DNA of 60,413 bases, taken from NCBI GenBank assembly GCA_902788645.1, contig CADAKW010000003.1:1-60413 (forward strand), read 5' to 3'. The DNA is from an uncultured Lachnospiraceae bacterium (GTDB lineage: Bacteria > Bacillota > Clostridia > Lachnospirales > Lachnospiraceae). The translations under genes and the position numbers were made by a program. A model generated the notes under the pieces. That model searched no databases and was not told the DNA's origin. It was given only the letters and a program-made list of their open reading frames with translations. Positions 40,805 through 50,731 of the stretch are shown piece by piece (within the stretch, counting starts at the first letter, position 1; the number at the start of each line of letters is the position of its first letter).

Positions 40805-40831
40805 TGTTGGCAATAGGCAATATTGACAACA
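40805..40831. promoter_or_regulatory. palindromic operator overlapping a -35 box
   Basis: Arms TGTTGGCAATA and TATTGACAACA match at 10 of 11 positions around a 5-bp spacer. The right arm contains TTGACA (40823-40828); 17 bp later is TTGTAT (40846-40851) on the plus strand. This is the likely promoter of the PadR-fusion gene. The rest of 40518-41034 is AT-rich with no other feature recognised. Confidence 0.55.
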
Positions 40832-41034
40832 TTCGTTATTAAAAATTGTATATTTTCGTCACTTGCATTATTTCACGATCCGTACGATAATGTATTTAGA
40901 GAAAATATGTAAAGATATGTCTGAATATCAACAAAATTATTATAAGACATGATCAGAGGGAAAGAGTAAGAAAGAAGACATATTGTTCGTAATTCTGAAT
41001 AATATGTACTCCGAAAAGGAAAGGGATGAATGTT

Positions 41035-44000
41035 ATGATGTTTAACACCAGTGAGTTAATACTCGATGCAGTTATTTTATCAATTGTGGCCAGCACGCCT
41101 GAGGGCATTTCCGGCTTTAAGATTGTCCAGAATGTCCGCTCTAAGATTGATGTACCGGAGAACACATTCTATCCTTTGTTAAAGCAGATGCAGGCTGATG
41201 GCTATCTGGAAGTTTATCATAAGGATATCGGTGGCCGCAGTCGTCGTTTTTATAAGATTACAGATGCCGGACGTGAGCATCTTACATATTGTCAGCAAAC
41301 CTGGAACAGTTATCTGCAGGGCGCCAGCTCACTTCTGATGAACGGAGCTGCAGCACCTCAGGCTGCTGCGCCGACACCGGCACCTCAGCCGCAGACAGCT
41401 TCCACATCACAGCCTCAGCCAGTTCCTGTTATGAATGCGGCCCCTCAGGCTGTTCCGGCTTCCGGTTCCCAGCCGGTGCCCGTTATGAATGCAGCACCTC
41501 AGGCTGTTCCGGTTTCCGGTTCCCAGCCGGTTCCTGCTATGAACGTGGCTCCTCAGGTTACTCCTGTTTCCGAACCACAGCCGGTTCCTGTTATGAATGT
41601 GGCTCCTCAGGTTACTCCTGTTTCTGAGCCTCAGCCGGTTCCTGCTATGAACGTGGCTCCTCAGGTTACTCCTGTTTCTGAGCCTCAACCGGTTCCTGCT
41701 ATGAACGTGGCTCCTCAGGTTACTCCTGTTTCCGAACCACAGCCGGTTCCTGTTATGAACGTGGCTCCTCAGGTTACTCCTGTTTCTGAGCCTCAACCGG
41801 TTCCTGCTATGAACGTGGCTCCTCAGGTTACTCCTGTCTCTGAGCCTCAGCCGGTTCCTGTTATGAATGCAACACCACAGATCAATCCGGCAACCTTACA
41901 ACAGCAAAATGCTGCGGCCGCCGATGACTCTTTCCATATCGGAGGAGCATCCGACGCTATGATGGATTTTGACTTTTCTATAGGTGATGATGATTCCGTA
42001 ACATCAGATGATATGGGATTTTCTTCTGATGGCGATTTATTCGAATTCGAGAATATTCCATCATCATCATTTATTTCATATGATGACGCTCCTGCTGACG
42101 CTGTTCCACAGCAGACACCTGTTTATCAGGAACCTGCTGCAGAGCCTGCTCCTGTTCTGGAAGCGCAGCCGGAAGCCCAGGCCATTGCACCGGAGCCTGT
42201 TTATCAGGAACCTGCTGCAGAGCCTGCCCCTGTTATGGAAGCGCAGCCTGAAGCTCAGGCCATTGCACCGGAGCCTGCTTATCAGGAGCCTGCTGGAGAA
42301 CCTGTTCCTGTTATGGAGGCACAGCCGGAAGCCCAGGCCATTGCACCGGAGCCTGTTTATCAGGAGCCTGCTGCAGAACCTGTTCCCGTTATGGATGCAC
42401 AACCGGAAACTCAGACCATTGCACCGAAACCTGTTTATCAGGAGCCTGCAAATGAACCGGCTACGGAAACGATCAATATGGATGCAGAACAGCCTGTTTA
42501 TCAGGAACCTGCCGATGAACTTGCTACAGAAACGATCAATATGAATGCAGAACAGCCTGTTTATCAGGAACCTGCCGATGAGCTTGCCACAGAAACGATC
42601 GATATGAACGCTCCTGTGGAGGAAATGATCTCTACAGAGCCGGCATCGGATGACGCTAATGAACCTGTAGAAGATGACGAGGCAGACTTCCTTGCAGAAA
42701 TGGCTATGGGTGATTCTGACGAAACAGCTGAAGATGACCTTCCGGAACTTGAAAGCTCTGTATCTGATATTGCTACGATCAATGCTTTGGAAAGCATGCT
42801 CACACAGTTACGTTCTTTCGAATCCGTTATGGAAGCTCATCCGGAGCCAAAGGCAGCAACAGAAGAAGCTTCCGCCAATTTAAATATTAACGATATCAAT
42901 GCGGTTGCTGCTATGTTAAATCCTGCAGATGCAGAAGCATCTGATACAGCTGCCAGCGATACAAATGCGCAGGAGTCTTCTTCGACCCCTGTTCGTTATA
43001 CAGAAGTCCGTAACAAAGAAACAGATGACTCCGTCAACAGTCTTGTAGACTTACTGAAAGATGACGATCAGCCAAAGAAACGTGGATTCTTTGGACGTAA
43101 TAAAAAGAAAAATATTCCAAAGGAGCTTATTGCCGATACTCCGAGATCATCCTCTACCCCTGTGCCGGTACCAAGTCAGGTCAGAGCGAAATCAGAGTCT
43201 TCACCAATTCCTACTTCTTCCTCAAGAATGCAGGAGGTCCGCAACCCGGACAGTGATGATTCTGTCAATAGTCTCGTAGATCTTCTGAAAGAGGATAACT
43301 CCTCTTCCAAGAAAAAAGGACGTAAATCAAGTCGTTCTGCTGCCGATGAGTTCAGAGCTACTGCTGCAGATATTTCTGCAATGTCAAGTTCTGTTCCTCT
43401 GCCAAAGCAGACCTCTTCATCCAATCCGTTACGGGCATTTTCTTCTTCAACGCCTCTGCGGGCATTCTCTTCATCCAATCCGGTCCGGGCATTTTCTTCT
43501 TCCAGACCTGTTGGACCGGTGCCAAAGGCTGAAAATTCGCAGTCAAGACCTGTTTCCAGATCCAGCTACCGTGAAGTACCGGACGATGATGCAGTCGGTG
43601 GATTAGCAGATCTTTTGATGGAAGGAAAGCAGAATAAATCCGCTACACCAAAGATTTTCAAGCAGAGAATGGTTTCCAGCTCTCAGCCACTCGCCGGTGT
43701 GTCCTCAGAAAGTCCGGTACCAGAGTCAAAAGAGACTGTTTCTCCTGAGGCAGAATCACATGCTCATAAGCCGGAGGCAGGCAAGTCCTTTGAAGAAAAG
43801 GCTGCCGCACCAAACGCAAAGCCTGTGGAAACCACCGCTACTATCACAAAACCTTTAGAGGCAAAAGCTATCAGCACAAAACCTACAGAGGCAAAGCCGG
43901 TAGAAGCAAAATCTGTAGAAACAAAGGCAGTCGTTACACCAAAGCAGGAGCCGGAACCTGCACCTGCACCTGCTGCAGAGCCGGAAGAGGCTCCTATGGA

Positions 44001-44061
44001 TGATTTCAAGCGTCGTCTGTTACAGGCACACTTGATCTCCAACGAAGATGACAATAAATAA
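41035..44061 (+). CDS. PadR-type regulator fused to a 900-residue repetitive tail
   Basis: 1008 residues. Residues 1-95 form a PadR winged helix, close to the 110-residue PadR protein at 48512 (MMFNTSELILDAVILSIV against MVFNTGSALLDAIVLAVV). The rest has low complexity: nine 18-residue repeats (41419-41904, unit PVPAMNVAPQVTPVSEPQ), four 26-residue and three 21-residue repeats starting PVYQEPA (42118-42618), an acidic stretch, three copies of a DDSVNSLVDLLK-like motif each followed by basic residues, Ser/Arg repeats and a KPVEAK-rich end. It closes with MDDFKRRLLQAHLISNEDD. Start fixed by alignment to the paralogue. The tail is probably disordered and its role unknown. Confidence 0.8.
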   Translation: MMFNTSELILDAVILSIVASTPEGISGFKIVQNVRSKIDVPENTFYPLLKQMQADGYLEVYHKDIGGRSRRFYKITDAGREHLTYCQQTWNSYLQGASSLLMNGAAAPQAAAPTPAPQPQTASTSQPQPVPVMNAAPQAVPASGSQPVPVMNAAPQAVPVSGSQPVPAMNVAPQVTPVSEPQPVPVMNVAPQVTPVSEPQPVPAMNVAPQVTPVSEPQPVPAMNVAPQVTPVSEPQPVPVMNVAPQVTPVSEPQPVPAMNVAPQVTPVSEPQPVPVMNATPQINPATLQQQNAAAADDSFHIGGASDAMMDFDFSIGDDDSVTSDDMGFSSDGDLFEFENIPSSSFISYDDAPADAVPQQTPVYQEPAAEPAPVLEAQPEAQAIAPEPVYQEPAAEPAPVMEAQPEAQAIAPEPAYQEPAGEPVPVMEAQPEAQAIAPEPVYQEPAAEPVPVMDAQPETQTIAPKPVYQEPANEPATETINMDAEQPVYQEPADELATETINMNAEQPVYQEPADELATETIDMNAPVEEMISTEPASDDANEPVEDDEADFLAEMAMGDSDETAEDDLPELESSVSDIATINALESMLTQLRSFESVMEAHPEPKAATEEASANLNINDINAVAAMLNPADAEASDTAASDTNAQESSSTPVRYTEVRNKETDDSVNSLVDLLKDDDQPKKRGFFGRNKKKNIPKELIADTPRSSSTPVPVPSQVRAKSESSPIPTSSSRMQEVRNPDSDDSVNSLVDLLKEDNSSSKKKGRKSSRSAADEFRATAADISAMSSSVPLPKQTSSSNPLRAFSSSTPLRAFSSSNPVRAFSSSRPVGPVPKAENSQSRPVSRSSYREVPDDDAVGGLADLLMEGKQNKSATPKIFKQRMVSSSQPLAGVSSESPVPESKETVSPEAESHAHKPEAGKSFEEKAAAPNAKPVETTATITKPLEAKAISTKPTEAKPVEAKSVETKAVVTPKQEPEPAPAPAAEPEEAPMDDFKRRLLQAHLISNEDDNK
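41419..41904 (+). repeat. 54-bp in-frame tandem repeats (9 units)
   Basis: Nine coding units of 54 bp encode an 18-residue motif, the middle six nearly identical in DNA, so the array probably expands and contracts by slippage or recombination. Confidence 0.9.
42118..42618 (+). repeat. 78-bp and 63-bp in-frame repeats
   Basis: Four 78-bp units followed by three 63-bp units, each beginning with codons for P[VA]YQEPA. Confidence 0.85.
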
Positions 44062-44087
44062 ACGATATAAATGCATATCTATTCATA

Positions 44088-44141
44088 GTATCCATTGCTC
44101 TTTGGCAATGGATACTTGTATAAAATAATGTTTTATACAAG
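44088..44141. repeat. two abutting perfect palindromes
   Basis: Arms of 11 bp with a 6-bp loop (44088-44115, GTATCCATTGC/GCAATGGATAC) run directly into arms of 11 bp with a 5-bp loop (44115-44141, CTTGTATAAAA/TTTTATACAAG). The first may terminate the PadR gene. The second ends 2 bp before the IS. Confidence 0.7.
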
Positions 44142-44219
44142 ATAGTGTCAAGTGACGTATGAAAAAAACGTGACAAAGAAAAGGGCACTTATGCACCTTG
44201 AAAACTGTAGATATTTTAG

Positions 44220-44440
44220 GTTGTGGTGGAGTGACGCCACCCTTGACAGCACAACAAGAACTGCTGGAAGGTCATTACCGACGGCGAAGAACTCAAGAAC
44301 AGTTAGTTCTTTTCCGTCTTTTACAGCAGTGTAGCAGTTCTTTTATGAGCCATCAAGGGCATGCCGCTTACGCGGTGGCTGTTTTATTACCTTAGGCTCA
44401 GAATCTAAGAACAGTTAGAGCCTTCGGCTTGCATTTTTAA
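44220..44440. other. highly structured non-coding end of the IS
   Basis: Nested hairpins: GGTGG/CCACC (44226-44242), AAGAACTGCT (44256-44265) with AGCAGTTCTT (44333-44342), inside which GACGG (44280-44284) pairs with CCGTC (44314-44318) and AAGAACT with AGTTCTT; then AGGCTC/GAGCCT near 44394-44425. It could be a transcription block or an element-encoded RNA. Confidence 0.5.
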
Positions 44441-45862
44441 GATTTGCTGTTGTCCTAAGAAGATTAGAAGCTGCCATTTTCCCGGCATGTTGGTTGCACC
44501 TTTTAACATATCAACCTCATTTAATACTTTGTAACCATTGTGTTTGTGAGGTCGAAGGAAGTTGTAGTAGGCAACCCAGAGAGCAAGGTCGTAGTTGGCA
44601 CCGTCGATGTTATCAAATCCGTTAGTAGGTCTGTAAGACATTTTATAAGTGCGGTTGAGACGTTCAATCATCTGCTTATAAGGACGGAATTCTTTTGATA
44701 CTTCATCGTCGTTGGTAAGTCCAATAACCTGAGTGATATCAAACTTGATTTTGCCGTTTGACTGTATAAAGAATTGTTGGGCTGCAAGAGGATAAGCACT
44801 GTAACCATCCGCGATAAACTTGAATTTTTCCGGTAGCTCTTTTAGATGTTTGAATGCCATACGCATTGACAGAATACATGGACCAACGCCACGGTTATCC
44901 GATATTTGATATCCGATAATAGAACGTTTGGCAGCATCCATGATGAACCAGATGTAGCCTTTGACACCGCGGATTTTGATATATGTTTCATCAGCGGTAA
45001 AGACATTTCCGACCTGATAGTCAAAGTTGTCTGTAAAAGGTTTTATACAGACCGCAGCGGTTTTCAGATAGTTTGCAACCTGCTGATGGGAGATTTTGAT
45101 TCCGTGGATATCGTTTAAAGCCTGGGCAGTTTTTCTTAAAGAAAGACCAAGATTTACTTTGTAGGAAAGACATAATCCCATGACATTCTGGTCGAACTTA
45201 GTGAATTTAAGGGAGGAAGCGTTTTTAGGTAAAGTGTTTAAGTCCATGTTGAAGAAATCTATCTGGAATTCCCGGTAGATGTAGTGGAGTTTATATTTAT
45301 ATTTATTAGATTCCAAGTCTTCTTTATCAACCTTTTTAAGATTGTGAAGGTAGTAAGGACATTTCTTGTTAATACATTTATGTACAACGAAGTGTTTGCG
45401 GTTTTTCTTACGGTCGAGAGTGTGGTTGCAGTGAGGACATTTTAAAACATGAGTTTTGGTAAATCTGGATTCAGCAGTAGGCTTAAATCGGGATTGACAA
45501 ACCTTGCAAAGAAGCTGGGACTGTTTCTTGCCATCGTTCCACATAAGGTATTGAAACGGAGCATTACAAGAAAAACAGCGACAGTCTTCAGGAACGTTAC
45601 ATTCGCTATGACGGAATACCGGTTTAATGGTTTTGTGATAACGTTGTTCATAGTAGCCGATGAGGTCCTTCCAATCCCATTCCTGTTCATAGGATATGAT
45701 TTTGGGAAGCTGATCAATCTTGAACTTTTGGTACTTTGGAGAGTGTGAATCATCGAAAGCCCACTGCTTAAGAGGAATGTATCTACAGATAAAGTTAAGA
45801 AGTTGGCCAATAATTTTTTGTTGGTATTGAATGTAATCAAGTAAATATTGTATAATGTTCAT
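44405..45862 (-). CDS. DDE transposase with N-terminal zinc ribbons
   Basis: 485 residues. The N-terminal half has cysteine pairs (CFSC/CKVC, CPHC/CINKKCPYY) forming zinc ribbons, then a helix-turn-helix-like region (LSLRKTAQALNDIHGI). The catalytic core has D in FTADETYIK, D in FIADGYSAYP and E in KQMIERLNRTYK, resembling DDE domains of the IS6/IS240 group. The ATG at 45862 has AAAGGAATT upstream. The reading frame is intact. Confidence 0.85.
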   Translation of the reverse strand: MNIIQYLLDYIQYQQKIIGQLLNFICRYIPLKQWAFDDSHSPKYQKFKIDQLPKIISYEQEWDWKDLIGYYEQRYHKTIKPVFRHSECNVPEDCRCFSCNAPFQYLMWNDGKKQSQLLCKVCQSRFKPTAESRFTKTHVLKCPHCNHTLDRKKNRKHFVVHKCINKKCPYYLHNLKKVDKEDLESNKYKYKLHYIYREFQIDFFNMDLNTLPKNASSLKFTKFDQNVMGLCLSYKVNLGLSLRKTAQALNDIHGIKISHQQVANYLKTAAVCIKPFTDNFDYQVGNVFTADETYIKIRGVKGYIWFIMDAAKRSIIGYQISDNRGVGPCILSMRMAFKHLKELPEKFKFIADGYSAYPLAAQQFFIQSNGKIKFDITQVIGLTNDDEVSKEFRPYKQMIERLNRTYKMSYRPTNGFDNIDGANYDLALWVAYYNFLRPHKHNGYKVLNEVDMLKGATNMPGKWQLLIFLGQQQILKMQAEGSNCS

Positions 45863-46013
45863 AGCAATAATTCCTTTCGTATAGGTTTGTTTGGCGATAG
45901 ACATTATACATCAAAAAAGGGGGTTATTGCTTTTTTATTTGCAAAATCCCTGAAAATAAAGGTTTTTAATAGAAATAGAGGGGTGTCTTTTGACACTACC
46001 GGTGGAGCAGGCG

Positions 46014-47357
46014 ATGGAATACTATGAAGATTATTTTGCTGATGCAGGTCCTGAAAAGGAGCAGGAGATCATTCGTGATTTTATTTCTCCTGCCTATATT
46101 GCCGAACAGCTGCGTGAGGCTTCTTTACAACGTCAAAAGGCTGCGGCCCAGGCAACGGTTCAGGAGGAAGAGAAACGCGCCGCTGCTGCAAGAGCGCAGG
46201 CGGCCGCAGGTAAACCACCTGTATATTCCAGAAAACTGGCAGCTCAGGCGCAAAAAAATGCATCTATGGCTACCTCGACCGGATTTGTGACGCAAACACC
46301 AACGGTAAGAACAAAATCTTCTGTTCCTCCTGCACAGCCGCAGACCAATCCTGCCGCCAATCCGGTTTCCGGACCTTCCACTGCAGCCGCATATAGCCAG
46401 GATCCAACGTCGGCTGGAACTACAGCTCCTATTTCTACACCACAGACACAGACACCGGCACAGGCTGCAGCTTCTATTTCCATGCCGCAGACACCGGCAC
46501 AGGCCGCAGCTGCCATTTCGGTTTCACCGACTCCTGCGCAGACTGCCGCTTCTATTGCTTCTGCTCCTTTTGCAGGACAGGCTGTCCCTAACCCTTCAGC
46601 CACTACAGCAATTCCACAGACGGCACAGACAGCAGGCAGCGGTGCTCCACAGACGGCATCTGTTCAGAGACCACAGACAATAACCCCGCCTGGTATCGGT
46701 CAACCATCTGTCCAGGCCTCTGTTCCTTCTCAACAGGCACCTGCCACAGCAGCCGCAAAACCGGCAGAGCAGCCATCTAAAAGCTCTTCCATGCGTAATT
46801 CCATCTTCCGTGATGATACGGAGGAAGACAAGAAAAAGGCTGAAGAAGAATTGGAAAAACGCAATAAAACAAAGGTTGATATTAAATCGATCAATTCCAC
46901 TACTTCTAAGGTAGACAAAAAATTATCGAGAGCGGAAGCAAAACGAAATGCTGCGATTGAAAAAGCAAATAACGCCGAAAGATACAGCAGCTCTAAAAAA
47001 ATGGTCATTGGAATTGTACTGCTGATCACCTGCCCTATCTGGCTGACCTTTATAGGCATTATCCTCGGAGTCTTTCTCCTGGGCGCAGGTGCTGTCATCG
47101 GATGTATCCTTGCCGGCATAGGCTGTTTCGCTGCAAGTCTGTCATCCATTGCTCTGACGTTGTTAGCCTTACTCTCCGTTCGGATTTCTACGGGTATCTT
47201 TACTTTGGGCTGTGTATTATTCTTATTTGCAGCCGGTTGTGGATTGTGCTTTCTTGGCTACAAGCTGGCAACAAGAATCCTTCCCGGCGCCTATTTCAGC
47301 GTCAAAGTTTTATTCAACGGAATTAAAGCAAGACTTGCCCGTCTTGCTCTCAAATAA
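46014..47357 (+). CDS. HAAS/DUF1700-type membrane protein, 5' end removed by the IS
   Basis: 447 residues from the first ATG after the IS; the open frame extends back to TTG at 45990, inside the IS end. It begins MEYYEDYFADAG, which in the paralogue at 48901 lies after about 30 residues of MTKYEFLGDLSRLLADLPEEE. Thus the N-terminal helix of the HAAS domain is missing. A long Ala/Pro/Gln/Thr-rich linker (about 40-260) follows, then a charged stretch and four membrane helices. GGAG in host DNA before 46014 could act as a fortuitous ribosome site. Whether it is expressed or functional is uncertain. Confidence 0.7.
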   Translation: MEYYEDYFADAGPEKEQEIIRDFISPAYIAEQLREASLQRQKAAAQATVQEEEKRAAAARAQAAAGKPPVYSRKLAAQAQKNASMATSTGFVTQTPTVRTKSSVPPAQPQTNPAANPVSGPSTAAAYSQDPTSAGTTAPISTPQTQTPAQAAASISMPQTPAQAAAAISVSPTPAQTAASIASAPFAGQAVPNPSATTAIPQTAQTAGSGAPQTASVQRPQTITPPGIGQPSVQASVPSQQAPATAAAKPAEQPSKSSSMRNSIFRDDTEEDKKKAEEELEKRNKTKVDIKSINSTTSKVDKKLSRAEAKRNAAIEKANNAERYSSSKKMVIGIVLLITCPIWLTFIGIILGVFLLGAGAVIGCILAGIGCFAASLSSIALTLLALLSVRISTGIFTLGCVLFLFAAGCGLCFLGYKLATRILPGAYFSVKVLFNGIKARLARLALK

Positions 47358-47401
47358 TTTGATAGTCAGAAACAGATCATTGTTTCAGAATGGAGTATCG
47401 C

Positions 47402-48304
47402 ATGAATAATAAAATTAAAATCATCATTGCAATCGGCATCATCGGAATTTTAGTTATGGTCGCAGGCTTTGTTATGGGCAGCGGTCCATCCTCTATTCCT
47501 GCAATCTTCTCAGGTCAGAACATTCCGGAAGGAGCTGCCTCCATCAACGATGTGCAAGCCGGTGATGTGCGCTCAATTGAGTTAAATCTGTTTTCCAGTA
47601 AGATATCTATTAAAACCGGGGAAAATTTTGACCTGTCCGGCAGTGGCCAGTTTGATGGTTATGTATTAAATGGCATCTTATATGCAGGTTCCACTGAAGC
47701 CAAAAGAACTGCAAATGTCCTGGGCATGAAGTTCAATGTACCTTCCAAATGGATCTGCGGTTACGGCAGCTATGTTCTCGTAATCCCTCCGGATGCAAAG
47801 CTGGATCAGATCACTATCAACACCAATCGCTGTGATATTACCTGTGATGCCTTAATTGCCAGCAAGGTCAATATCAACGTAAAAAACGGCGATTTGAAGG
47901 TTGACACACTTACAACCGATAATGCTGCCATTTCTGTCGATGGTACCCTTGATGTATCTGCATCAAAGATCACTATGGGAGGCAACATATCTGCCAATAA
48001 ACGTATGAGCATTGGTACATCCGGTGCTGCCAAAGAAAATGCCATGAACAACACTACACTTGCAAATAAGCGCGGAGGCATTATTCTCTATGGTAAAATG
48101 ACCGGAAGTACAACCTTACAGAGTAATCGTGGTAACATTGAAGCCTGCTTATATGGCAGCCGTGCCAATTACACATTCCCTGCAGCATCACCAAATCTCA
48201 TGATTCATGATTCTGCTGTCGCCAACACAAAGGACGATCCCGAACCATATGGTACTGTTGCAGTAGATGCGTCAAAGGGCAATGCATCCATTTCCTTTGA
48301 ATAG
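47402..48304 (+). CDS. DUF4097-type beta-helical membrane-anchored protein
   Basis: 300 residues with one N-terminal membrane helix (about 4-26), then a repetitive beta-strand domain typical of DUF4097 (SKISIKTGENF, ITINTNRCDITCDALIASK, INVKNGDLKVDTLTT). GGAG precedes the ATG. Last gene of the first PadR-HAAS-DUF4097 cassette. Function is unknown; these proteins accompany HAAS proteins and probably sit outside the membrane. Confidence 0.8.
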   Translation: MNNKIKIIIAIGIIGILVMVAGFVMGSGPSSIPAIFSGQNIPEGAASINDVQAGDVRSIELNLFSSKISIKTGENFDLSGSGQFDGYVLNGILYAGSTEAKRTANVLGMKFNVPSKWICGYGSYVLVIPPDAKLDQITINTNRCDITCDALIASKVNINVKNGDLKVDTLTTDNAAISVDGTLDVSASKITMGGNISANKRMSIGTSGAAKENAMNNTTLANKRGGIILYGKMTGSTTLQSNRGNIEACLYGSRANYTFPAASPNLMIHDSAVANTKDDPEPYGTVAVDASKGNASISFE

Positions 48305-48371: not shown

Positions 48372-48410
48372 TTCCGTAAAATACCCATCACATAAAAAAA
48401 CACATATATC

Positions 48411-48439
48411 TTGACAGGACATATTATACAGCGTATAAT
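48411..48439 (+). promoter_or_regulatory. consensus promoter of cassette 2
   Basis: TTGACA (48411-48416), 17 bp, TATAAT (48434-48439): a perfect sigma-A promoter. Confidence 0.85.
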
Positions 48440-48466
48440 ATCACCATATTATATAGCATATAGTAT
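48421..48466. promoter_or_regulatory. tandem palindromic operators, probable PadR sites
   Basis: A perfect 9-3-9 palindrome (48421-48441, arms ATATTATAC/GTATAATAT around AGC) covers the -10. A second copy with the same AGC centre and 8 of 9 arm matches lies at 48446-48466, exactly 25 bp downstream. Binding would block transcription, fitting PadR autoregulation. Confidence 0.65.
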
Positions 48467-48511
48467 TATATTCTGTAAAAAAATCATCAAACAATATGAA
48501 AGGAGTTTTTC

Positions 48512-48844
48512 ATGGTATTTAACACTGGCTCTGCATTATTAGATGCCATTGTGCTTGCCGTTGTGGAACGGTCTTCCGAGGGAACCTATGGCTATAAGAT
48601 CACTCAGGATGTACGATCTGTCATAGATGTCTCAGAATCAACACTCTACCCGGTTCTGCGAAGACTCCAGAAGGATGACTGCCTTTCTGTATATGACAGA
48701 GAGTGCGGTGGGCGAAACCGCCGGTATTATCAGATTACAGAACAAGGCCGGGTACAATTAAACCTTTATCGGCAGGAATGGCACAGTTATTCCCATAAGA
48801 TCAGTCAACTGCTGCTGCACACACCAACAGGTACAAATCAATAA
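48512..48844 (+). CDS. PadR-family transcriptional regulator
   Basis: 110 residues, a complete PadR winged helix with the recognition region ESTLYPVLRRLQKDDCL and wing DRECGGRNRRYYQITEQG, ending without the usual long helical extension. AAAGGAG precedes the ATG. First gene of cassette 2 and close paralogue of the N terminus of the 41035 protein. Probably represses its own operon through the palindromes upstream. Confidence 0.9.
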   Translation: MVFNTGSALLDAIVLAVVERSSEGTYGYKITQDVRSVIDVSESTLYPVLRRLQKDDCLSVYDRECGGRNRRYYQITEQGRVQLNLYRQEWHSYSHKISQLLLHTPTGTNQ

Positions 48845-48900
48845 ATTGTTGCACACATCAGCAGACGCAAGTCAATAAATGAAAAGAAATGAGGAGAATT

Positions 48901-49767
48901 ATGACCAAATATGAATTTTTAGGAGATTTAAGCCGGTTATTGGCAGATCTTCCGGAGGAGGAACGCAAACAGGCGCTTCACTATTACGAAGATTATTTTG
49001 CCGATGCCGGGGAAGATAACGAGCAGGATGTCCTGAAAGAGCTTGGCTCTCCGGAAGCAATTGCCGATCAGATCAAAAATGACGGCACCGAAGACATTTC
49101 CTACGGAGACAGTGCCGGCTTCCATGCAGCCGATGCCCCTCAGTTATATCAGACATCCGAACATACATCGGATGATCACACACAGAACGCTTCCGGGTCC
49201 GGGGACGGATGGCATAAAATGCCCGGCTCGCAAAATTCCGGTAATAACCGGCAGCAAAATTCCGGCTCAAATAGTCAGACCGGCTGGAACCAGACTTCCG
49301 GCAATTACCATAACACAAACGGGGAACAGGCATCTTACCAACAGGCAGGCCAGAAAAAATCCGGCTTCTTTGCAAAAATGGATCAATCAAATACTCTCAT
49401 CATGATCATTGTCCTGATCGTCACCTCTCCAATCTGGGGATCCGTATTGATCAGTATTGCCGGCATCCTTTTGGGTATTGTGAGTGCCATCGTTGGTATT
49501 TTCGCCGCAATGATCTTTGGCGGTGCCGGATCAGCAATTGGAGGCGTTGCTACCATCGTTGGTGGAATCATTGGCATTATCGCCGGAAAGACTGCCGGAG
49601 GTATCCTTACCATCGGCGTCGGCTGTCTGTTATTTGCTCTTGGCTCTGCATTCTGTTATCTGGGAATATTCCTTGCCATCCGGTTATTTCCGCTGCTCTG
49701 GAAGCAGCTCCAGCGTTTCTGGGACTGGATGACAGGAAAGCTTACAGGAAAGGAGCAGTCTTATTAG
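48901..49767 (+). CDS. HAAS/DUF1700-type membrane protein
   Basis: 288 residues: complete HAAS domain at 1-65 (MTKYEFLGDLSRLL...YYEDYFADAGEDNEQDVLKELGSPEAIADQIK), a Gln/Asn/Ser/Gly-rich linker (about 75-155), then four membrane helices rich in Gly/Ile. GAGGAGAATT precedes the ATG. Intact counterpart of the truncated 46014 protein. Confidence 0.85.
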   Translation: MTKYEFLGDLSRLLADLPEEERKQALHYYEDYFADAGEDNEQDVLKELGSPEAIADQIKNDGTEDISYGDSAGFHAADAPQLYQTSEHTSDDHTQNASGSGDGWHKMPGSQNSGNNRQQNSGSNSQTGWNQTSGNYHNTNGEQASYQQAGQKKSGFFAKMDQSNTLIMIIVLIVTSPIWGSVLISIAGILLGIVSAIVGIFAAMIFGGAGSAIGGVATIVGGIIGIIAGKTAGGILTIGVGCLLFALGSAFCYLGIFLAIRLFPLLWKQLQRFWDWMTGKLTGKEQSY

Positions 49768-49780
49768 ACGAGTGTGAATT

Positions 49781-50731
49781 ATGAAAAAAAGAAATATTTT
49801 TTTATTCGTTTTATCCGGAATCTTTTTGATCGGTATATTATGTATTATTGCAGGAACCATGATGGGAGGGACGCTTTTTTCCTTTCATATCAACCCGAAA
49901 ACATCATCGGAAACATATAAGGAAAGCGGGTCCATGACTTTGTCTGATAAGGAAGCCTCACAGATCACAGGCTTCGACTTCGACATCAAGGCCCAGGAGG
50001 TTGTGATCCAGTCCGGGGAATCTTACGGCATTGAAACCAAAAATGATAATGATAATAACCGCTATCATTCCTACATTGAGGACGGTATCTGGCATGTGGA
50101 AACTCCTGATACTACAAATGCCGATGTTACGATCCTCGACCATACGATCCAGATCCCTTTTGGCCACAGGATCACGAATGATAGTCTCTATACGATCACC
50201 ATCCCCTCCGATGTAACCTTTGATAAAGCGAATATTTCCTTAGCGGCAGGGGCATGCCGGCTCAATACGCCTCTGATTGCCGAACAGTCCATCATAAAAA
50301 TCGGTGCCGGGGATTTAAGAGCAAAGGATCTGCAGGCCAAGACATTAACTATCAAGATCGGTGCCGGAGAAGGCATCATTGACAAGCTTCAGGTTGCGGA
50401 GCATTGCACCGCGAAGGTCGGTGTGGGAAATCTGGAGCTTGGAAAAAGTGATAATGTTTCCGCTATCCACAATCTGGTCTCTAAAACAGCCATGGGAAAT
50501 ACCGAGATCACAGGAAAGCTCACGGGAAGCAGTACATTGAAATGTTCTACCGGGAATCTGGATCTGACACTGACAGGTGCAAAAAGTAATTACAACTTTA
50601 GCACAAGCGCCGCCATGGGAGACATTACCTTTAAAAAGGACTCTCCGTCAGAAAATACCTCCTCAGAAAATTATGGAGATGTAACCCTCAAATGCAGCAT
50701 GGGAGCCATTACGGTAGACTTTATGAACTAA
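49781..50731 (+). CDS. DUF4097-type membrane-anchored protein
   Basis: 316 residues: one N-terminal membrane helix (about 6-30), then DUF4097 beta repeats (IIKIGAGDLRAKDLQAKTL, TIKIGAGEGIIDKLQV, AKVGVGNLELGKSDNV). Last gene of cassette 2, 13 bp after the HAAS gene; paralogue of the protein at 47402. Confidence 0.82.
   Translation: MKKRNIFLFVLSGIFLIGILCIIAGTMMGGTLFSFHINPKTSSETYKESGSMTLSDKEASQITGFDFDIKAQEVVIQSGESYGIETKNDNDNNRYHSYIEDGIWHVETPDTTNADVTILDHTIQIPFGHRITNDSLYTITIPSDVTFDKANISLAAGACRLNTPLIAEQSIIKIGAGDLRAKDLQAKTLTIKIGAGEGIIDKLQVAEHCTAKVGVGNLELGKSDNVSAIHNLVSKTAMGNTEITGKLTGSSTLKCSTGNLDLTLTGAKSNYNFSTSAAMGDITFKKDSPSENTSSENYGDVTLKCSMGAITVDFMN

Follow-up and report, generated by a model that had tools for sequence, protein, structure and literature searches.

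A PadR-family regulator carrying a long, repetitive, low-complexity tail in a Lachnospiraceae genus: a possible flexible tether to a membrane-bound HAAS complex

In the window, the 60,413-nucleotide stretch of contig CADAKW010000003.1 of an uncultured Lachnospiraceae bacterium that was analysed here, an uninterrupted open reading frame of 1011 codons (41026-44061, + strand) encodes a PadR winged-helix domain followed by a low-complexity tail of ~900 residues. The reading that we tentatively prefer, with a probability of roughly 40%, is that this protein is the autorepressor of a PadR-HAAS-Toastrack envelope-stress operon, and that the tail, as a multivalent and flexible tether, links it to the HAAS complex in the membrane. 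A tether is the simplest explanation that covers the fusion itself, its genus-wide conservation, the constraint on short boxes within the tail, the labile spacers, the operon and a segment of the HAAS protein. The PadR-family one-component regulators of bacteria are compact, typically ~100-200 residues, a size that is not part of the Pfam definition. Here, regulatory information appears to reside in the tail, whose length is several times that of the DNA-binding domain.

The domain, repeats and boxes of the protein are located as follows, with pN/pS values given against the relative G001.

41026-41349 (+): PadR winged-helix domain, residues 1-108; PF03551 match; PDB relatives 3l7w, 4ejo and 7wjp
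41419-41904 (+): nine 18-residue PVP[VA]MN..EPQ repeats, variable spacer 1; pN/pS 0.43; absent in G002
41917-42105 (+): conserved acidic-aromatic box FDFSIGDDDS..LFEFEN.IPSS.FIS, residues 298-360; core residues invariant in three of three species
42118-42608 (+): seven YQEPA repeats, variable spacer 2; pN/pS 0.47
42676-42942 (+): acidic region with the short predicted helices EADFLAEMA, INALESMLTQLRSFES and NINDINAVAAML; AlphaFold2 helices 551-560, 580-603 and 621-639
43003-43104 (+): motif copy 1, EVRNKETDDSVNSLVDLLKDDDQPKKRGFFGRNK; predicted helix 667-678; pN/pS 0.04, basic patch included
43234-43335 (+): motif copy 2, EVRNPDSDDSVNSLVDLLKEDNSSSKKKGRKSSR; predicted helix 745-755
43570-43668 (+): motif copy 3, degenerate, REVPDDDAVGGLADLLMEGKQNKSATPKIFKQR; predicted helix 858-865; aligned in G001 and G002
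43783-43944 (+): 54-residue C-terminal core KSFEEKAAAPNAKPVETTATITKPLEAKAISTKPTEAKPVEAKSVETKAVVTPK, residues 920-973; 47 of 54 residues identical in G002; pN/pS 0.02; modelled as coil
43996-44025 (+): C-terminal short helix DDFKRRLLQAHL; AlphaFold2 helix 991-1000, block pLDDT 60-74; found in three of three species

PF03551 matched residues 18-86 (E=1.9e-9; 37.9 bits, cut-off 27), which identifies a PadR family domain, and no other Pfam or NCBIfam model rose above its curated cut-off in the rest of the 1011-residue protein. The domain retrieved 37 PDB sequences at E<=0.01, mostly named PadR, the best of which (e.g., 3l7w and 4ejo) are ordinary proteins of ~110-120 residues. Between the window genome (G000) and G001, no amino-acid difference was seen over its 108 codons (pS 0.51; pN/pS 0), and 81 of the 108 residues (75%) are identical in G002. 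At 1011 and 754 residues in G000 and G002, respectively, the tailed protein exceeds the typical PadR size. The preliminary description had begun the gene at 41035, an in-frame ATG that is as plausible as 41026, and its proposal of a PadR domain fused to a repetitive tail of ~900 residues is borne out by the reading frame, the PF03551 match and the repeats.

The long PadR was present in all three of the sampled genus members, adjoining pfkA, with HAAS and Toastrack-like genes downstream. In G002, an intact tailed PadR with four motif copies lies at the same locus beside pfkA, whereas in G001 the PadR end and the remaining tail are found on two contigs that both end inside the 18-residue repeats, which is the break expected of short reads. 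These long forms beside pfkA indicate that the fusion is genuine and conserved in the genus, in which the tail ranges from ~640 to 900 residues. An assembly artefact, or two misjoined genes, is thus a very remote explanation. The repeats are prone to misassembly and the G001 contigs do break within them, but the G002 gene is intact without any 18-residue repeats and the G001 ends match both sides of the break, so that two independent assemblies support the join. A short PadR at this locus in close relatives, which the preliminary description had raised as a check together with misassembly, was found in neither G001 nor G002, and length variation, which it had anticipated between strains, was seen between species, in both repeat number and total length (1011 versus 754 residues).

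Beyond the genus, a profile search with the tail gave no meaningful homologue in 397 family genomes, the match in an L,D-transpeptidase-like protein (G061) being one of low complexity, and none in 196 genomes of the class; when contigs of named genomes were searched, the hits were limited to the two genus members already described. These samples hold about one genome per genus, and the two genus relatives are metagenome assemblies. From these searches, the tail looks like a genus-level innovation, seen so far in no more than three Lachnospiraceae genomes. Across 299 sampled genomes of the family, PadR matches were short, nearly all of about 105-200 residues among the frames listed, and PadR open frames in 148 class genomes spanned 97-406 residues among the matches listed in order of E-value. 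Among the long family frames inspected, G031 (581) and G116 (322) proved to be ordinary PadRs, G031 being rejected as a long form since its PadR frame ends beside a separate HAAS frame, and G274 (421) is a PadR-HAAS fusion. In a tree built on a short alignment, for which the bootstrap had not settled, the long PadRs formed one group apart from 33 short ones with 100/100 support. When pfkA synteny was used to look for a short-PadR orthologue in other genera, none of the 28 best pfk loci there had a neighbouring PadR, and a literature search for PadR proteins with a long disordered extension returned nothing relevant.

The tail contains no cysteine or tryptophan, is 14% proline and carries a net charge of -83. 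Tandem Repeats Finder resolved a 54-bp unit repeated 8.4 times at 41416-41870 (best score 666), with higher-order periods of 108 and 162 bp, a 78-bp unit repeated 4.3 times at 42118-42449 (score 503) and a 63-bp unit repeated 2.8 times at 42430-42608. At the protein level, these correspond to the nine PVP[VA]MN.. units of residues 132-293, the ninth of which is degenerate, and to the seven YQEPA units, four of 26 and three of 21 residues; all of the repeats previously described are therefore present. The motif DDSVNSLVDLLK occurs at residues 667 and 744, with the degenerate form DDAVGGLADLL at 854, and the first two copies carry a longer leader, EVRNxxT/S. A basic patch had been described beside each copy; it is clear after copies 1 and 2 (KKRGFFGRNKKK and KKKGRKSSR) but weak after copy 3 (KIFKQR). 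No other protein of the genome carries a DDSVNSLVDLLK-type motif, apart from a weak match in a 23-residue frame (G000 C20).

The three-way alignment divides the tail into fast repeat blocks (pN/pS 0.43 and 0.47) and slow boxes and core (0.02-0.11) between G000 and G001, values that are relative only, because synonymous change is near saturation, and that are affected by the uncertainty of alignment inside low-complexity sequence. Of all parts of the tail, the 54-residue core is under the strongest constraint between these two species, the closest of the three. Identity between G000 and G002 is higher in the core (87%) than in the PadR domain (75%), but the difference does not reach significance (Fisher p=0.10). 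When motif copies 1 and 2 of a single protein are compared over 11 codons, six changes are synonymous and one is nonsynonymous, indicating that their likeness is kept at the protein level and not by recent duplication. The motif copies noticed earlier are thus conserved as protein, according both to their pN/pS against G001 and to the mostly synonymous differences between copies 1 and 2. The three DDSVNSLVDLLK copies are, however, only part of the conserved tail, which has additional short boxes absent from the earlier list. In the acidic region, helices 551-560 and 580-603 recur in G002, and the surroundings of ADFLAEMA have a pN/pS of 0.11 against G001. Conserved short motifs between fast-evolving spacers are usually associated with eukaryotic transcription factors.

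AlphaFold2, run on the three-sequence alignment, gave a model of low confidence throughout (mean pLDDT 37.9, pTM 0.24), in which low pLDDT alone is weak evidence of disorder because the PadR domain also scored poorly (26-66 by block). The repeats were modelled as coil, with isolated helices at 551-560, 580-603, 621-639, 667-678, 745-755, 773-784, 858-865 and 991-1000, every one of which, except 773-784, falls on a conserved box named above. Composition supports disorder for most segments of the tail; the charge-hydropathy test does not call the V/M/A-rich 18-residue block disordered. The disordered tail that had been proposed is in keeping with this low-complexity composition and with the lack of a folded model, the latter at low confidence.

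The features surrounding the gene in the window are as follows.

40807-40829 (strand not assigned): 8-7-8 palindrome TTGGCAATaggcaatATTGaCAA in the padR promoter region, predicted PadR operator; one mismatch in G000
44087-44116 (+): 13-bp hairpin just past the padR stop, without a proper U-run; -18.5 to -22.3 kcal/mol and z -6.0 to -8.0 in three species
44143-45998 (strand not assigned): IS element bounded by the 14-bp terminal inverted repeats TAGTGTCAAGTGAC/GTCTTTTGACACTA; not present in G001 or G002
45990-47357 (+): HAAS membrane protein, 5' end lost in the window genome; partial PF22564 match; intact in G001 and G002
47390-48304 (+): divergent Toastrack/DUF4097-like protein of the same operon; PF13349 E=1.5e-4, 21.6 bits against a cut-off of 22.9
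48512-50731 (+): second, ordinary PadR (110 residues)-HAAS-DUF4097 operon, used for comparison

PadR proteins bind DNA as dimers at operator palindromes and usually repress their own genes. The palindrome TTGGCAAT-7-ATTGCCAA is perfect in G001, has one mismatch in G000 and has diverged in G002; it is the only site with 0-1 mismatches in the G000 genome and likewise in the G001 genome. It sits just after a conserved -10-like box, TGATATAAT, upstream of padR. It is a predicted PadR operator. A consensus promoter scan did not pick out the padR promoter.

Downstream, the HAAS gene directly follows the tailed PadR in G001 and G002, so that the two are coupled in these genomes. The DUF4097-like gene scored just under the PF13349 cut-off, and its operon position fits a Toastrack protein. 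In the HAAS proteins of the tailed operons, a linker of 148-268 residues separates the HAAS domain from the first membrane helix; the G001 model shows it (105-264) mostly as coil, at low confidence. Within the linker lies a conserved segment, MRNxIF..KAE..KTxVxIKS (46791-46922 in the window). Using phmmer, this segment was found at no other HAAS locus of the ~30 examined, the second operon included. Linker length by itself was rejected as a mark of tailed operons, since short PadRs, too, can have a neighbouring HAAS protein with a long low-complexity linker (e.g., L024, 231 residues), and so was the change of the HAAS groove GxP to ISP/VSP as a mark of co-evolution, because V, E or Q is found there in the HAAS partners of short PadRs.

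In the window genome, the IS element replaces the HAAS start codon and the first ~24 residues, including the first helix, at a place where the relatives are uninterrupted. Its transposase (44405-45904, - strand) has IS6/IS66-like DDE matches, and the assembly contains one copy of the element. A TTG after GAGGGG could restart translation of the truncated HAAS without HAAS helix 1. The PadR frame stays open despite the truncation, which may reflect a recent loss or another partner. Because the HAAS start has been removed here, the whole system is better studied in G001 or G002.

The arrangement resembles known systems. HAAS and PadR form a signalling pair with Toastrack partners, in which the PadR-like wHTH is standalone (PMC11237479, mSystems 2024). 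The PadR-type winged helix, the HAAS membrane protein and a Toastrack/DUF4097-like protein are common to both, whereas the present system has ~640-900 extra residues on the regulator and a novel segment in the HAAS linker; with its long tail in place of a standalone PadR, it is a variant of the HAAS-PadR system and not a standard member. In Listeria monocytogenes, mutation of lltR relieves repression of its own LltR-DUF1700-DUF4097 operon (lmo0599-lmo0600-lmo0601) by 100-150 fold (PMC6624303). This operon shares with the tailed one the succession of a PadR regulator, an autorepressor in Listeria and putatively one here, a DUF1700 (HAAS) protein and a DUF4097-type protein. LltR is described in the parts of that report consulted as a PadR-like repressor, with no tail reported, in contrast to the protein studied here. 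The second operon of the window matches the tailed operon in gene order, and the PadR domains are 47% identical, but its PadR (48512-48844; 110 residues) is tail-less and differs in promoter palindromes and tree branch. Two further proteins couple PadR physically to a membrane protein. In G274, a PadR-HAAS-TM fusion forms a single 420-residue frame (L047, 4108-5367, - strand), seen in one assembly and possibly a frameshift, and in G518, a 1.1-Mb genome of the same class, a 397-residue protein (L102, 947-2140, - strand) joins PadR through an acidic low-complexity linker to several apparent TM helices. The anchoring is covalent in these fusions and the tail is free here, and the tail profile matched neither of them; as independent fusions, they indicate that a physical link between a PadR domain and a membrane protein does arise in nature.

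In the proposed mechanism, a PadR dimer would bind the operator in its own promoter, and the two fast-evolving repeat blocks would act as spacers of a long flexible tether. The conserved short boxes, namely the acidic-aromatic boxes, three to four amphipathic helices of acidic character, mostly with a basic/aromatic patch after them, the 54-residue extended core and the C-terminal helix, would be docking sites that fold on binding. The likeliest partner would be the membrane-anchored HAAS protein of the same operon, and its Toastrack protein, and the state of the envelope would change the amount of repressor held at the membrane, whereby repression would be released or restored. Autoregulation is suggested by the palindrome and by the precedent of LltR. 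Binding of the tail to HAAS is suggested by operon context and co-occurrence, and the direction of signalling is likewise a proposal. The partnership with HAAS, an idea of the preliminary description, is plausible, given the shared operon and the linker segment present only in tailed operons. Against a tether, the second operon in the same genome works without a tail.

The main rival, which we consider doubtful, is that the tail is a scaffold or condensate segment at the nucleoid or RNA polymerase, in which acidic-hydrophobic boxes would recruit the transcription machinery and the KPxEAK core would contact DNA, making the protein an activator or cluster-forming regulator. The boxes are indeed acidic and aromatic or hydrophobic (DLFEFEN, MMDFDFSIGDDD, EADFLAEMA), as in activation-domain-like segments, the net charge of -83 accompanies many repeated interaction-like units, and the 54-residue core is conserved and rich in K, E, P and T. 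However, no precedent was found among PadR proteins, the protein's own promoter contains the sole operator-like site with 0-1 mismatches in G000 and in G001, and the operon context points to the membrane. Another possibility, given similarly low odds, is a multivalent assembly, either a membrane-proximal or a nucleoid cluster or condensate, of a eukaryote-like motif tail with a co-evolved HAAS linker, in which motif number and chain length, and not a folded sensor domain, would set transcriptional control.

Direct anchoring of the tail at the membrane by amphipathic helices and basic/aromatic patches (KKRGFFGRNKKK), with no protein partner, is the second rival and is improbable. In the different species, most motif copies are followed by FF or F embedded in lysine/arginine clusters, and the DDSVNSLVDLLK helix has a hydrophobic moment of 0.55, but the helices are acidic with a mean hydrophobicity of zero, which favours protein over lipid binding, and the weak basic patch of copy 3 also argues against it. 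It is slightly less probable still that the tail is mostly a neutral expansion of repeats, tolerated on a regulator that the cell can dispense with. Fast variation is seen in both repeat blocks, which G002 lacks or has in reduced form, and a single genus among the family and class genomes searched yielded the tail. However, the low pN/pS of the boxes and core relative to the repeats, and the retention of the tail in three species, with PadR domains only 75% identical for G000 versus G002, are contrary to such an expansion. Neutral expansion is thus disfavoured for the boxes but may yet account for the repeat blocks.

If the tail does dock on the HAAS/Toastrack complex, as the tether reading has it, the system would give an accessible handle on HAAS-to-PadR envelope signalling without phosphorylation, with built-in comparisons in motif number (three versus four), in spacer length and in the ordinary short operon that follows it directly in the window genome.

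Several minor observations were also made. In many HAAS proteins of the family (L015-L049), the HAAS domain is immediately followed by an E[YF]TExGYxDxRF-like motif, possibly an unrecognised functional motif, which is absent from both HAAS proteins of this genus. The promoter of the short-PadR operon (48410-48480; L044, 4780-4840) contains tandem TATTATA-TATAATA-like palindromes near the -35/-10 region, and their difference from the long-PadR palindrome suggests separate operator specificities. The hairpin GTATCCATTGC..GCAATGGATAC between padR and HAAS (44087-44116; L044, 2219-2262; L043, 7290-7325) is very stable and is nearly identical in sequence in the three species despite near-saturated synonymous sites. 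It is not a canonical terminator and, lacking a proper U-run, may serve mRNA processing or partial termination.
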